Origin: Halobaculum sp. MBLA0143
GTDB taxonomy: Archaea > Halobacteriota > Halobacteria > Halobacteriales > Haloferacaceae
DNA: 64,000 nucleotides
Direction of reading: 5' to 3'
Assembly: GCF_041361465.1 (NCBI RefSeq)
Contig: NZ_JBGKAC010000001.1
Span: 558,001 to 622,000, forward strand
Positions 8,361 through 58,443 of the stretch are shown piece by piece. The stretch's first letter is position 1, and each line of letters starts with the position of its first letter. A program made the translations under genes and the position numbers. The notes beneath the pieces are model-generated. The model was given only the letters and a program-made list of their open reading frames with translations, searched no databases and was not told the DNA's origin.

Positions 8361-9299
8361 ATGACCGACACGATTCTCGTCCCGACGGACGGCAGCGACC
8401 CGGCGGCGGCCGCCGCCCGGCACGCACGACTCCTGGCGACCGGGCTGGGGGCGGACGTACGAGTCCTGAGCGTCGTCCCCGAGGGCGGATCTGGGGGCCA
8501 GGAGAACCCGCGGACGGCCGCGGAGTCGGCCGCCGCAGACGCCGCCGCGCTCGTCGGCGGCTCCGACGCCGACGCCGGCGAGACAACGGTCGAGGCGACC
8601 ACCGTCGTCCGCCAAGGTGATCCCGCGGAGACGATTCTGGAGTACGCCGACGCCGCACACGCCGACCTGATCGTGATGGGGACACACGGTCGGACGGGCG
8701 TCGACCGGGTCGTCTCCGGCTCCGTGACGGAACACGTCACGCGGCTGTCTGAGGTGCCGGTGTTCACCGCTCGCGGGTCGGAGACGCCAGCGCCGACGAC
8801 GTACGACCGACTCCTCCTCCCGACGGACGGCAGCGACTGTGCGGAGGTGGCCGTCGCGGCGGCGATCGACCTCGCTCGCGCGCTCGACGCGAGCGTCGAC
8901 GTGGTGAGCGTCGTCGACGTGAACACGGTCGCGGCCCAGTCGGAACTGACGAACGCCCGGCTCGTGGTCGACGAACTGGAGCATCAGGCGCAGGCCGGGG
9001 TCGAACGAGTCGCCGACCGACTCGCCCAGGCGGGCGTCGGCGGCGAGACGGCAGTCGTCCAGGGGACGCCCGCGACCGGGATCGCCGACTACGCCGACGA
9101 CTCGGGCGCGGACCTGATCGTGATGGGGACCCACGGCCGCAGCGGGCTCGGACGGTTCCTCCTCGGGTCGACCACGGAGCGGCTGATCCGGCACGCGCCC
9201 GTGCCGGTGTTGTCCGTGCGGGCGGGCGACGCGAACGGAGAGGCGAGCGACGCGAACGGAGAGACGAGCGACGCGAACGGAGAGGCGAGCGACGACTGA
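8361..9299 (+). CDS. Double-domain universal stress protein (UspA family)
   Basis: This 312-residue protein holds two tandem Usp domains: residues 1-137 begin MTDTILVPTDGSDPAAAA and end with the nucleotide-binding VMGTHGRTGVDRVVSGSVTEH; residues about 147-285 begin YDRLLLPTDGSDCAEVAV and end VMGTHGRSGLGRFLLGSTTER. Both keep the G-x2-G-x9-G-S/T type ATP-binding loop, so ATP binding is likely. The start ATG at 8361 places the first strand correctly; an in-frame codon nine bases earlier is less likely. The extreme C-terminus is a low-complexity tail of three DANGE(A/T)S heptads. Role in stress response is inferred from the family. Confidence 0.9.
   Translation: MTDTILVPTDGSDPAAAAARHARLLATGLGADVRVLSVVPEGGSGGQENPRTAAESAAADAAALVGGSDADAGETTVEATTVVRQGDPAETILEYADAAHADLIVMGTHGRTGVDRVVSGSVTEHVTRLSEVPVFTARGSETPAPTTYDRLLLPTDGSDCAEVAVAAAIDLARALDASVDVVSVVDVNTVAAQSELTNARLVVDELEHQAQAGVERVADRLAQAGVGGETAVVQGTPATGIADYADDSGADLIVMGTHGRSGLGRFLLGSTTERLIRHAPVPVLSVRAGDANGEASDANGETSDANGEASDD
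9228..9290 (+). repeat. 21-bp tandem repeat in the Usp C-terminus
   Basis: Three nearly identical 21-bp units (GACGCGAACGGAGAGGCGAG plus one base) encode DANGEAS-DANGETS-DANGEAS just before the stop. The period is a multiple of three, so copy-number change would keep the frame. Confidence 0.85.
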
Positions 9300-14112: not shown

Positions 14113-14200
14113 GAATTCAGACGAGCCCTCGATACACGAGTGAGTGACCGCAGGGGGCGAGCAGACAGGCCCAACAAAATCGAAAGACGCACCCCGAGTA

Positions 14201-14423
14201 GACTCGCCGGGAGTCGTGCTCGTTCCCTCAACAGAATACCCTCACACAGATGGACTCGCCGGGAGTCGTGCTCGTTCCCTCAACAGAATACCCTCACACA
14301 GATGGACTCGCCGGGAGTCGTGCTCGTTCCCTCAACAGAATACCCTCACACAGATGGACTCGCCGGGAGTCGTGCTCGTTCCCTCAACAGAATACCCTCA
14401 CACAGATGGACTCGCCGGGAGTC
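14201..14423. repeat. 52-bp tandem repeat array carrying the tRNA-Ala 3'-end sequence
   Basis: Units begin at 14201, 14253, 14305, 14357 and 14409, exactly 52 bases apart. Four units are complete and identical as far as read; the fifth breaks off after GACTCGCCGGGAGTC. Each unit opens with GACTCGCCGGGAGTC, itself an inverted repeat (GACTC-GCCGG-GAGTC). Units 2-5 are preceded by TG, so they read TGGACTCGCCGGGA, identical to the last 14 bases of the nearby tRNA-Ala gene in plus-strand orientation (14498-14511). The period is not a multiple of three, so the frames crossing the array are not protein-coding. It is followed by GAGCGAGCG-type filler up to the tRNA. Confidence 0.9.
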
Positions 14424-14497
14424 ACGCGAGCGAGCGCAGCGAGCGAGCGTGACTACGGCGAGTCCAGTGACTGAGCGAACGAAGTGAGCGAAGGAAC

Positions 14498-14569
14498 TGG
14501 ACTCGCCGGGATTCGAACCCGGGGCCTTCTCCTTGCGAAGGAGACGATCTACCGCTGATCTACGAGCCC
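14498..14569 (-). tRNA. tRNA-Ala (CGC anticodon)
   Basis: The minus strand gives a complete cloverleaf. The acceptor is GGGCTCG paired with CGAGTCC (one G-U), with discriminator A at 14498. The anticodon stem TCTCC/GGAGA carries loop TTCGCAA with anticodon CGC, and the T-arm is CCGGG-TTCGAAT-CCCGG. Length is 72 bases with no intron. Its 3' end is copied in the 52-bp repeats 75-300 bases downstream. Confidence 0.95.
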
Positions 14570-34435: not shown

Positions 34436-34450
34436 CTAGAATCGGGACGC

Positions 34451-34548
34451 GAGCGAGGGCCGAAGGCCCGAGCGAGCGCCTTTTTAATCGACATTTTTGC
34501 TCCGAGTGGTGCACGCCGCAGGCGCGCACCCGAGGAGGAAAAGTGTCG
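34451..34548 (+). other. Hairpin-T-run-hairpin intergenic element upstream of gatE
   Basis: First a GGGCC-gaa-GGCCC triloop hairpin inside GAGCGAG/GAGCGAG flanks, then a CCTTTTTAATC run at 34479-34489, then a second long hairpin with arms CGACATTTTT (34489-34498) and AAAAGTGTCG (34539-34548) around a GC-rich imperfect stem. The first half looks like an intrinsic terminator, yet no plus-strand gene ends here. Similar CGAAG-loop, T-run elements are, to my recollection, dispersed in haloarchaeal genomes. Confidence 0.45.
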
Positions 34549-56682: not shown

Positions 56683-58443
56683 ATGGAAGACACATCGAAG
56701 TACCTCATTCACGCACGCATCACCGCGGACGGCGTCGTCGAGCGGTCGGACGTCGTCGGCGCGGTGTTCGGACAGACGGAGGGACTGTTGGGCGACGAAC
56801 TGGACCTCCGGGGCCTCCAGGAGTCCTCGAAGATCGGGCGTATCGACGTCGAGATCGACAGCGAACACGGACAGTCGTTCGGCGAACTGACGATCACCTC
56901 CAGTCTCGACAAAGTCGAGACGGCGATTCTGGCGGCCTCGTTGGAGTCGATCACGCGGGTGGGCCCGTGTGAGGCGCGCGTCGAGGTCGCGGAGATCGAG
57001 GACATGCGCGCCGCCAAGCGTCGGGAGGTAGTCGAACGCGCGAAAGAGCTGTTGGCGGAGTCGTTCGACGACGGCGTGATGGACTCGACGGAGATCCTCG
57101 CGGAGGTTCGTGACGCCCAGCGGGTCGAACGGATCGACGACTACGCCGGCTACCCCGCCGGCCCGCGAGTGACCGACTCCGACGCGGTGATCGTCGTCGA
57201 GGGACGCGCGGACGTGACGACACTGCTGGACTACGGTATCAAGAACGCCGTCGCCGTCGAAGGGACGAACGTCCCGAGCGAGGTGGCCGACCTCACCCAG
57301 GACCGTACCGTGACGGCGTTTCTCGACGGCGACCGCGGCGGCGACCTGATCCTGCGCGAGCTCGCGCAGGTGGGCGACGTGGACTACGTCGCGTACGCCC
57401 CGGAGGGGACGTCCGTCGAGGACCTCTCTCGCGAGGCCGTGATGAACGCGCTCCGGGACAAGGTGCCGTTCGAGACGCTGCCGGCGGCCGACCAGGAGGA
57501 GGCGACACGGCCGAGCAGCCGGGCGTCGACGAACGGCGCCAGCGAGTCGGAGCCGTCGGTGGCCGCGGACGACGAAGACAACGATCGGACGACCGGGAGC
57601 GTCCGCACGAGCGGCACGGACAGTCGCGAGGCGATCGGCGGCGTCGGGACGACGAGCGACGGCACCGTCTCCGTCGACCCGGAGGCAGTCGCCGACGAGA
57701 TTGCCAACGACGGGCCGACGACCGACGGTGACGACACGACCGACGGTGACGATACGACCGACGCCGACGGCGACGGAGTAGACCAGAGAGTCGACGGTGA
57801 GGAGACGGACGGATCGGTCGACGGCGAGGCGGAGAGCGAGACAGGCGAGTCGGTCGACGGCGAGGCGGAGAGCGAGACAGACAGATCGGTCGACGGCGAC
57901 GTGGAAAACGAGACGGACGGATCGGTCGACGGCGACGAGAGAGCCGACAGCGACGAGACGGACGGATCGGTCGACGGCGACGAGAGAGCCGACAGCGACG
58001 AGACGGACGGGTCGACCGACGGCGAGGAGGAGGCAGAGACAGACGAGAGAGCCGACAGCGACGAGACGGACGAGTCGGTCGACGACGAGGAGGAGCGTGA
58101 GACAGACGAGACGGTCGACGGCGACGAGTCGAGCGCCGGCACCCCGGCGACCCTGCGCGGGCACGTCGAGGCGGTGATCGACGCCGGGACGAACACGGCC
58201 CGACTGCTGGACCGCGAGATGGAAGTCGTCGCGGACGTGCCGGTCGGCGCGGCGTTCGACACGCTCGCAGACGAGGAGACGACGGGGTTCGCGCTCGTCG
58301 TCGACGGCCAGGTGGACCAGCGACTGTTAGACGTGGCCGCCCAACGGGGGGTCGAACAGATCGTCGCGCAGTCCAGCGGGGAGTTCGTCAAACGGCCGGC
58401 GTCCGTCCGGGTCGTCACCGCAGACCGGCTCGCGTCCGCGTGA
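56683..58443 (+). CDS. dnaG: Archaeal DnaG primase-like protein
   Basis: This 586-residue protein has the archaeal DnaG layout: an N-terminal domain (KYLIHARITADGVVERSDVVGAVFGQTEGLL), the Toprim domain with VIVVEGRADVTTLL (169-182) and LDGDRGGDLILREL (214-227), and a conserved C-terminal domain LRGHVEAVIDAGTNTARLLD after residue 490. Archaeal DnaG acts both as a primase and in the exosome. Between about 344 and 485 lies an acidic, repeat-built linker (GSVDGE, ADSDETDG and variants). This makes the protein roughly 100 residues longer than usual. A TATA-like GGTATATCC lies near 56580-56588. Confidence 0.95.
   Translation: MEDTSKYLIHARITADGVVERSDVVGAVFGQTEGLLGDELDLRGLQESSKIGRIDVEIDSEHGQSFGELTITSSLDKVETAILAASLESITRVGPCEARVEVAEIEDMRAAKRREVVERAKELLAESFDDGVMDSTEILAEVRDAQRVERIDDYAGYPAGPRVTDSDAVIVVEGRADVTTLLDYGIKNAVAVEGTNVPSEVADLTQDRTVTAFLDGDRGGDLILRELAQVGDVDYVAYAPEGTSVEDLSREAVMNALRDKVPFETLPAADQEEATRPSSRASTNGASESEPSVAADDEDNDRTTGSVRTSGTDSREAIGGVGTTSDGTVSVDPEAVADEIANDGPTTDGDDTTDGDDTTDADGDGVDQRVDGEETDGSVDGEAESETGESVDGEAESETDRSVDGDVENETDGSVDGDERADSDETDGSVDGDERADSDETDGSTDGEEEAETDERADSDETDESVDDEEERETDETVDGDESSAGTPATLRGHVEAVIDAGTNTARLLDREMEVVADVPVGAAFDTLADEETTGFALVVDGQVDQRLLDVAAQRGVEQIVAQSSGEFVKRPASVRVVTADRLASA
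57712..58137 (+). repeat. Acidic coding repeat region inside dnaG
   Basis: About 142 codons of Asp, Glu, Ser, Thr and Gly in imperfect repeats. The clearest is a 45-bp unit (SVDGDERADSDETDG) present twice in tandem at 57922-58011, with related shorter SVDGEAESET units before it. All periods are multiples of three, so the frame is kept. Confidence 0.85.

Follow-up and report, generated by a model that had tools for sequence, protein, structure and literature searches.

Many tRNA genes of haloarchaea are trailed by short non-coding cassettes in tandem, each of which carries hairpins and ends in a copy of the 3' end of its own tRNA gene. Here we describe one such stack, located behind tRNA-Ala(CGC) in a 64,000-nt stretch of the genome of Halobaculum sp. 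MBLA0143 (contig NZ_JBGKAC010000001.1, positions 558,001 to 622,000; hereafter the window), together with similar units at other tRNA genes and in other genomes. An initial annotation had reported a 52-bp tandem array derived from the end of this tRNA gene and had read it as a scar of repeated integration and excision or as a stack of att-like sites. We conclude with moderate confidence that this array forms the amplified outer portion of a stack of gene-free, non-autonomous cassettes, which would move into and out of a tRNA attachment site by site-specific recombination with the recombinase acting in trans, and that its 52-bp units multiplied later. The reading as a stack of attachment sites is supported in part; the surprise is a wide system of tRNA-fitted hairpin units.

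The preference of archaeal mobile DNA for tRNA 3' ends has mostly been approached from the integrase side; in the present case, it is the sites that have a structure of their own. Copies of their own ends trail 18 of 43 and 20 of 40 tRNA genes in two genomes from different families, many with strand-specific hairpins. Mobile units would amount to a class of integrative elements that lack genes and have target-fitted ends; units that are a host feature would form an undescribed structured zone behind tRNA genes. The inverted arm that matches each tRNA poses a question of DNA mechanics. A description of these units was found neither among the open-licence literature titles listed nor in the available parts of PMC8371274, PMC3119063 and PMC4046053; because this result covers the open-licence papers among the matches listed, it is weak evidence of novelty.

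Structure of the stack at tRNA-Ala(CGC)

The tandem period of 52 bases was recovered by TRF at positions 14201-14423 of the window (4.3 copies, 100% matches, score 446). The five unit starts of the initial annotation were found again, with GACTCGCCGGGAGTC at 14201, 14253, 14305, 14357 and 14409, as were the exact junctions of units 2-5, with TGGACTCGCCGGGA at 14251, 14303, 14355 and 14407; the outermost junction copy (14199) has one mismatch to TGGACTCGCCGGGA. The repeated block is indeed the tRNA end, namely the last 14 nt of tRNA-Ala(CGC). The array had also been drawn up to the tRNA gene, but the intervening positions 14421-14497 are a hairpin segment, within which 14456-14466 repeat the tRNA end in inverted orientation. 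Read along the tRNA strand, tRNA-Ala(CGC) comes first; 77 bp and the 14-bp block TCCCGGCGAGTCCA follow, and then four times a 38-bp spacer plus block, all four spacers being identical. The 77 bp adjoining the tRNA gene consist of the inverted tRNA-end copy flanked by two quasi-palindromes and form, with their block, a 91-bp unit. This hairpin unit next to the tRNA is called B and the 52-bp units are called C. The features are as follows.

14498-14569, minus strand: tRNA-Ala(CGC), anchor of the stack (ARAGORN; Rfam tRNA, 70 bits); the repeated block is its last 14 nt, 14498-14511
14467-14497, minus strand: B unit, first quasi-palindrome; GA-mismatch hairpin on the plus strand
14456-14466, plus strand: B unit, inverted tRNA 3'-end copy; reads CGGCGAGTCCA on the plus strand
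14421-14455, minus strand: B unit, second quasi-palindrome; GA-mismatch hairpin on the plus strand; nearly the same 42-bp core lies behind tRNA-Arg(CCT) of the same genome
14407-14420, minus strand: B unit, direct 14-bp tRNA 3'-end copy
14355-14406, minus strand: C unit 1; 38-bp spacer and exact 14-bp copy
14303-14354, minus strand: C unit 2; identical to C unit 1
14251-14302, minus strand: C unit 3; identical to C unit 1
14199-14250, minus strand: C unit 4, outer end of the stack; spacer identical, 14-bp copy with one mismatch

The doubly GA-mismatched hairpins of the B unit are two of three such places in the 64-kb window, and five shuffles gave none. The third place (34449-34477, plus strand) has the same design, and no tRNA was called nearby. 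One large RNA across the array was considered and rejected, as the 389-nt fold is ordinary (z -1.12) and Rfam returned the tRNA and one below-threshold match. Elsewhere in the window, overlapping GAC/GAG-rich tandem repeats of 18-63 bp at 57715-58128 perhaps encode an acidic repeat protein, and a 21-bp repeat of 3.5 copies (9221-9294) lies 3'-terminally in an open frame resembling, by eye, a universal stress protein.

Related units in the same genome

The assembly comprises 3.58 Mb in two contigs. A second stack (C1:827405-827731) was found downstream of tRNA-Ala(GGC), 255 kb from that at tRNA-Ala(CGC), after which the idea of the 52-bp unit as an isolated curiosity was dropped. Its 77-bp B segment shows two differences from the first by hand count, and its three C units are also 52 bp long, with a different spacer sequence; two are identical and one has three changes. 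That C spacers are alike within a locus and different between loci points to local spread by slippage or unequal exchange. In the 52-bp part at tRNA-Ala(CGC), the four identical spacers look more like the outcome of slippage than of the repeated integration suggested by the initial annotation.

Copies of the last 16 nt of a tRNA gene (at most three mismatches, at most 700 bp away) were counted in the flanks of all 43 tRNA matches of the assembly. They were present downstream of 18 of the 43 genes and upstream of none, and were exact downstream of 10. Shuffled downstream sequence (200 shuffles) gave a mean of 0.24 of 43 and a maximum of 3, and the ends of other tRNAs were found in the same downstream stretches in 13 of 1640 pairings. 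Full 16-nt inverted end copies occurred downstream of two of the 43 tRNAs, and the inverted 13-nt T-arm (at most two mismatches) downstream of 12.

Hairpin cores are shared between different tRNA genes of this genome, namely by Ala-GGC with Arg-CCT (42 bp, 95%), by Arg-TCG with Leu-TAG (47 bp, 94%) and by Asp with Thr-GGT (63 columns, 92%). The acceptor copy behind each of these shared cores is that of its own tRNA. A stray or decayed unit may be represented by a B-type core (L004 1501-1555, G000:C1:1983140-1983194) in a 3-kb stretch where no tRNA was called.

Two classes of units

Class A units are about 122 bp long (median 122) and read from an inverted T-loop copy through a loop into a direct copy of about 22 nt, which runs from the T-loop to the tRNA end; their GA-mismatch hairpins form on the tRNA strand. 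Class B units are about 86 bp long (median 86), with a copy of 13-14 nt, often an internal inverted acceptor copy, and GA-mismatch hairpins on the opposite strand. The class count was based on 212 units distinct by exact sequence, with near-identical units kept and an exact 11-nt end copy required. An inverted T-loop was present in 121 units (A) and absent from 42 units behind Ala or Arg tRNAs (B); 49 units fell into neither class and were left out of the A/B statistics. These stricter rules were adopted because class 'other' of a looser, earlier sorting had been mixed in polarity (GA/GA in 29 and TC/TC in 44 of 88).

The exact copy measured 21-24 nt in 103 of 121 A units and 12-14 nt in 37 of 42 B units. 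Tandem GA/GA mismatches framed by Watson-Crick pairs were found on the tRNA strand of 104 of 121 A units and 1 of 42 B units, and their complement, TC/TC, in 9 of 121 and 41 of 42, respectively. An inverted end copy was found in only 28 of the 42 B units. After similar A loops had been collapsed (n = 104), GA/GA was found in 67 and TC/TC in 3 (shuffle expectation 1.4), and the tRNA strand folded better in 77 and worse in 26. Loops share common ancestry, so that the events behind these loop statistics are not independent, and this also applies to the 108 of 132 loops that folded better than the mean of their own shuffles, to the agreement of the two arms in the T-loop (123 of 132), and to the match of the acceptor copy with the own tRNA (110 of 131). 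Of the 68 different four-base helix starts in the same loop set, some are not fully paired. Terminal inverted repeats of at least 8/10 showed no excess over chance (0 of 136 A units, 0.3 expected; 1 of 84 other units, 0.2 expected). Inversion of the loop between the arms was rejected, as loops of a given type all point the same way (judged by eye only). A role as single-stranded DNA would suit both polarities, whereas an RNA role of the tRNA transcript would suit class A only.

Distribution

In a genome of another family of the same order (G112), own-end copies were found behind 20 of 40 tRNAs and upstream of none. In a genome of the same phylum and another order (G373), there were none downstream of the 45 tRNAs used (of 46; matches inside other tRNAs were dropped) and none upstream. 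The A pattern (GATTYGAAC, 25-55 nt, GTTCRAATC), which is its own reverse complement so that each site is listed on both strands, occurred in 61 of 72 genomes of the order, that of MBLA0143 included, and was absent from the other 11; it was found in 2 of 223 other genomes of the phylum, and a reversed control pattern gave no match in any of them. Among 30 representative A loci, a called tRNA lay upstream of the hairpin on the same strand in 29, and the last (L119) showed a tRNA-like 3' end by eye.

A related pattern was present in at least 119 stretches of named genomes. Of the 80 titles listed, 72 read as haloarchaea; the others are Actinarchaeum halophilum, three contigs of the 'Euryarchaeota' MAGs Ods02 and Ods04, which at a guess belong to the Ordosarchaeia, and four further records. 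The 80 listed stretches contain 84 hairpins, 74 of which have a same-strand tRNA at most 700 bp upstream, a count that leaves out L326 and L339 (tRNAs present, orientation missed). From these 74 hairpins the sequence continues into the acceptor strand of the own tRNA with 11/11 matches in 51 cases and with at least 9 in 68. No tRNA was called for hairpins L294, L343 and L347. In Halorubrum alkaliphilum (L334 2835-2901 and 4712-4784), an A hairpin lies 1.8 kb from tRNA-Ala(GGC), as if there were an insertion between them. Two tandem A-pattern hairpins are found in a Micrarchaeota MAG (L305 3798-3907) on a contig without a called tRNA, and a dense cluster of tRNA matches, several of them low-scoring, occupies less than 2.7 kb at G038:C1:2635124-2637763.

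Matches in plasmid (12) and phage (9) records were confined to query positions 1-72, which is the tRNA part. Among viral contigs, the A pattern was found in 67 stretches, by the pattern alone, and a crude marker flagged three (L136, L163 and L182). Several G+C-rich viral contigs (L139, L152, L165, L168, L184 and L188) have long, near-perfect palindromes ending in T-loop-like GTTCAAATC.

Copies as possible attachment sites and differences between relatives

The 14-bp block also accompanies integrase genes in two genomes. In G059, tRNA-Ala(GGC) and a 14-bp block bound a 13.6-kb stretch with genes for a DUF1424 Rep-like protein and a tyrosine integrase; outside it, a B unit comes next. In G035, the order is integrase gene, 14-bp block and two B units, without a called tRNA in the 18 kb read. 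Units also lie beyond the element end in L222 and L221. The att copies beside integrase genes in L202, L208, L221 and L222 had no inverted tRNA-end arm in the stretch read.

The 30 tRNA-Ala(GGC) loci of one genus carry stacks that read, by eye, as none, B, A-B, B-A or B-A-B. A single 132-bp A unit at the tRNA boundary is the exact difference between L238 and L245, whose next 694 bp are 93.7% identical; L233 has, compared with L262, an extra B unit ahead of A-B. Deletion between direct copies could also produce such presence or absence of units. A family of sequences with a common left end, presumed to be an integrated element, directly adjoins the tRNA itself at three loci (L243, L246 and L248); at three others (L235, L255 and L261) it directly adjoins a unit copy. 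In the latter three, either integration used the unit copy or the units came in later. L261 has a left-end remnant of this presumed element behind a unit and L243 has one behind the tRNA, each followed by other sequence. No integrase was identified in the family, and a second block copy was not found within about 19 kb in L263 and L267.

Origin of the units

We propose that the cassettes are non-autonomous elements that would enter and leave at the tRNA 3' end through site-specific recombination at the copies. The recombinase would come from elsewhere, either from passing elements whose integrases share these cores or from the host as a XerA-like recombinase. At tRNA-Ala(CGC), one B cassette lies next to the tRNA, and the outer C units would owe their number to unequal exchange or slippage at the 14-bp copies. 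We count in favour of this explanation the own-end copies (18 of 43 downstream and none upstream, against 13 of 1640 for other ends), the near-identical cores that lead into the own acceptor sequence at different tRNAs, the two discrete core lengths with opposite GA/TC polarity, the exact junctions (L238/L245 and L233/L262) together with the integrase elements ending in the block, the four identical spacers here with another spacer at the sister locus, and the distribution (G112, 20 of 40; G373, 0 of 45).

Counted against it are the tRNA-matched inverted arm, which integration at the core leaves unexplained, and the results that no movement, circle or empty-to-filled event was seen, that the examined integrase elements ended in no type of unit, and that plasmid and phage records matched the tRNA part only. 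The recombinase repertoire of the genome also counts against it: the only PF00589 match is a XerA-like gene (NCBIfam XerA_Arch, 116.5 bits, below the cut-off of 220), and one further weak relative lies on contig 2 (E 2.4e-5). As the single PF00589 match lies 595 kb away, the earlier statement that no integrase gene is nearby holds. The XerA-like gene has matches in 29 of 30 genomes searched, its own included, 28 of them at 49% identity or more, and mobilisation in trans is possible.

An origin without any recombinase, which we consider unlikely, would have replication slippage between direct copies lengthen and shorten the stacks; template switching at quasi-palindromes would copy the tRNA end both ways and keep the arms alike. 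This would account for the fitted inverted arm, for C units that are identical within a locus and different between loci, and for presence/absence junctions on direct copies, as slippage predicts. However, similar cores at different tRNAs and stacked units with different loops at one tRNA need a non-local source, and two discrete core lengths with fixed opposite polarity are not predicted.

It is improbable that the units are a host feature, that is, structured tRNA 3' flanks acting in tRNA transcription, RNA processing or replication. The occurrence of the A pattern in 61 of 72 genomes of the order and the strand preference in the folding of A loops (77 of 104 fold better as the tRNA strand and 26 fold worse) would agree with such a role, but copies lie behind only 18 of 43 and 20 of 40 tRNAs, unit number and order at one tRNA vary within a genus down to none, and the reversed polarity of class B is ill-suited to an RNA role of the tRNA transcript.

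The initial reading of the units as scars, the end pieces of departed integrase-bearing elements, is quite improbable. What stands of it is the att-like nature of the copies: the 14-bp block also ends integrase elements (G059, G035), and the presumed element lies behind the tRNA or a unit copy, with left-end remnants in both positions (L243, L261). Evidence against a plain integration scar comes from the examined att copies, which had no inverted arm in the stretch read, from the units beyond the element in L222 and L221, from the two hairpin classes at many tRNAs, and from the likeness of the units in length, polarity and hairpins, which is not that of random remnants. The annotation would have taken the same array in relatives without a mobile element as evidence against itself, and this was partly found, with copies behind 18 of 43 tRNAs in a genome with one PF00589 match.

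Cas1-type (casposon or CRISPR-like) integration duplicating a 14-bp target is extremely improbable, and was rejected for this genome: the duplications made by casposons are 15 nt long in the median, and in five euryarchaeal cases the casposon overlaps a tRNA 3' end (PMC4046053), but this assembly, which is 97.2% complete, has no PF01867 (Cas1) match, the casposon inverted repeats of 25-602 nt given in the same paper have no counterpart beyond chance in the units, and the spacers at tRNA-Ala(CGC) are identical.

Comparison with known systems

On a broader scale, we tentatively suggest that Halobacteria, with traces in two neighbouring halophilic lineages, may possess a gene-free integron-like system, in which single-strand-folding cassettes of two polarities are inserted at tRNA genes and acquire the 3' end of the target tRNA in direct and inverted copy; the tRNA genes would be platforms on which stacks grow and on which viruses and plasmids land as well. 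The core of integron attC sites, which IntI recombines as folded single strands, has the consensus RYYYAAC / GTTRRRY. The class A arms (GATTYGAAC / GTTCRAATC) have a C at the fourth place and do not fit this core. Like attC arrays, the units stand in tandem at one anchor, have imperfect hairpins that depend on the strand (GA/GA versus TC/TC in 104 versus 9 of 121 A units and in 1 versus 41 of 42 B units), and carry copies that may be usable as recombination sites. Unlike them, they are without genes, their anchor is a tRNA gene to which their ends are fitted, and the T-loop copy reads GTTCRAA instead of GTTRRRY; IntI was not found here by a test.

Haloquadratum MITEs, PATEs and SMRs are short, gene-free and palindromic (PMC3119063), as are the haloarchaeal units described here; in PATEs, the palindromes lie near the termini and are akin to IS605-type ends. 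The units differ in having no terminal inverted repeats beyond chance, a trait of MITEs and SMRs, in their fixed position behind tRNAs, in their direct tRNA-end copies of 13-24 nt and in their tRNA-fitted arms. Casposons are large coding elements with inverted repeats and Cas1 (PMC4046053) and are like the units in that some tRNA 3' ends have direct repeats about 15 nt long; the units are gene-free, have no inverted repeats beyond chance, and occur here in a genome without Cas1. Archaeal tyrosine integrases act at tRNA sites, with a 13-bp core in SNJ2 and reported tandem integration at one locus (PMC8371274). Their sites resemble the units in using the tRNA 3' end as core, and the units differ in being gene-free stretches of 50-200 bp that have inverted arms and form hairpins. 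The trait of a stack of attachment sites, an intact tRNA gene with direct copies of its 3' end behind it, is present in this genome (18 of 43, none upstream).
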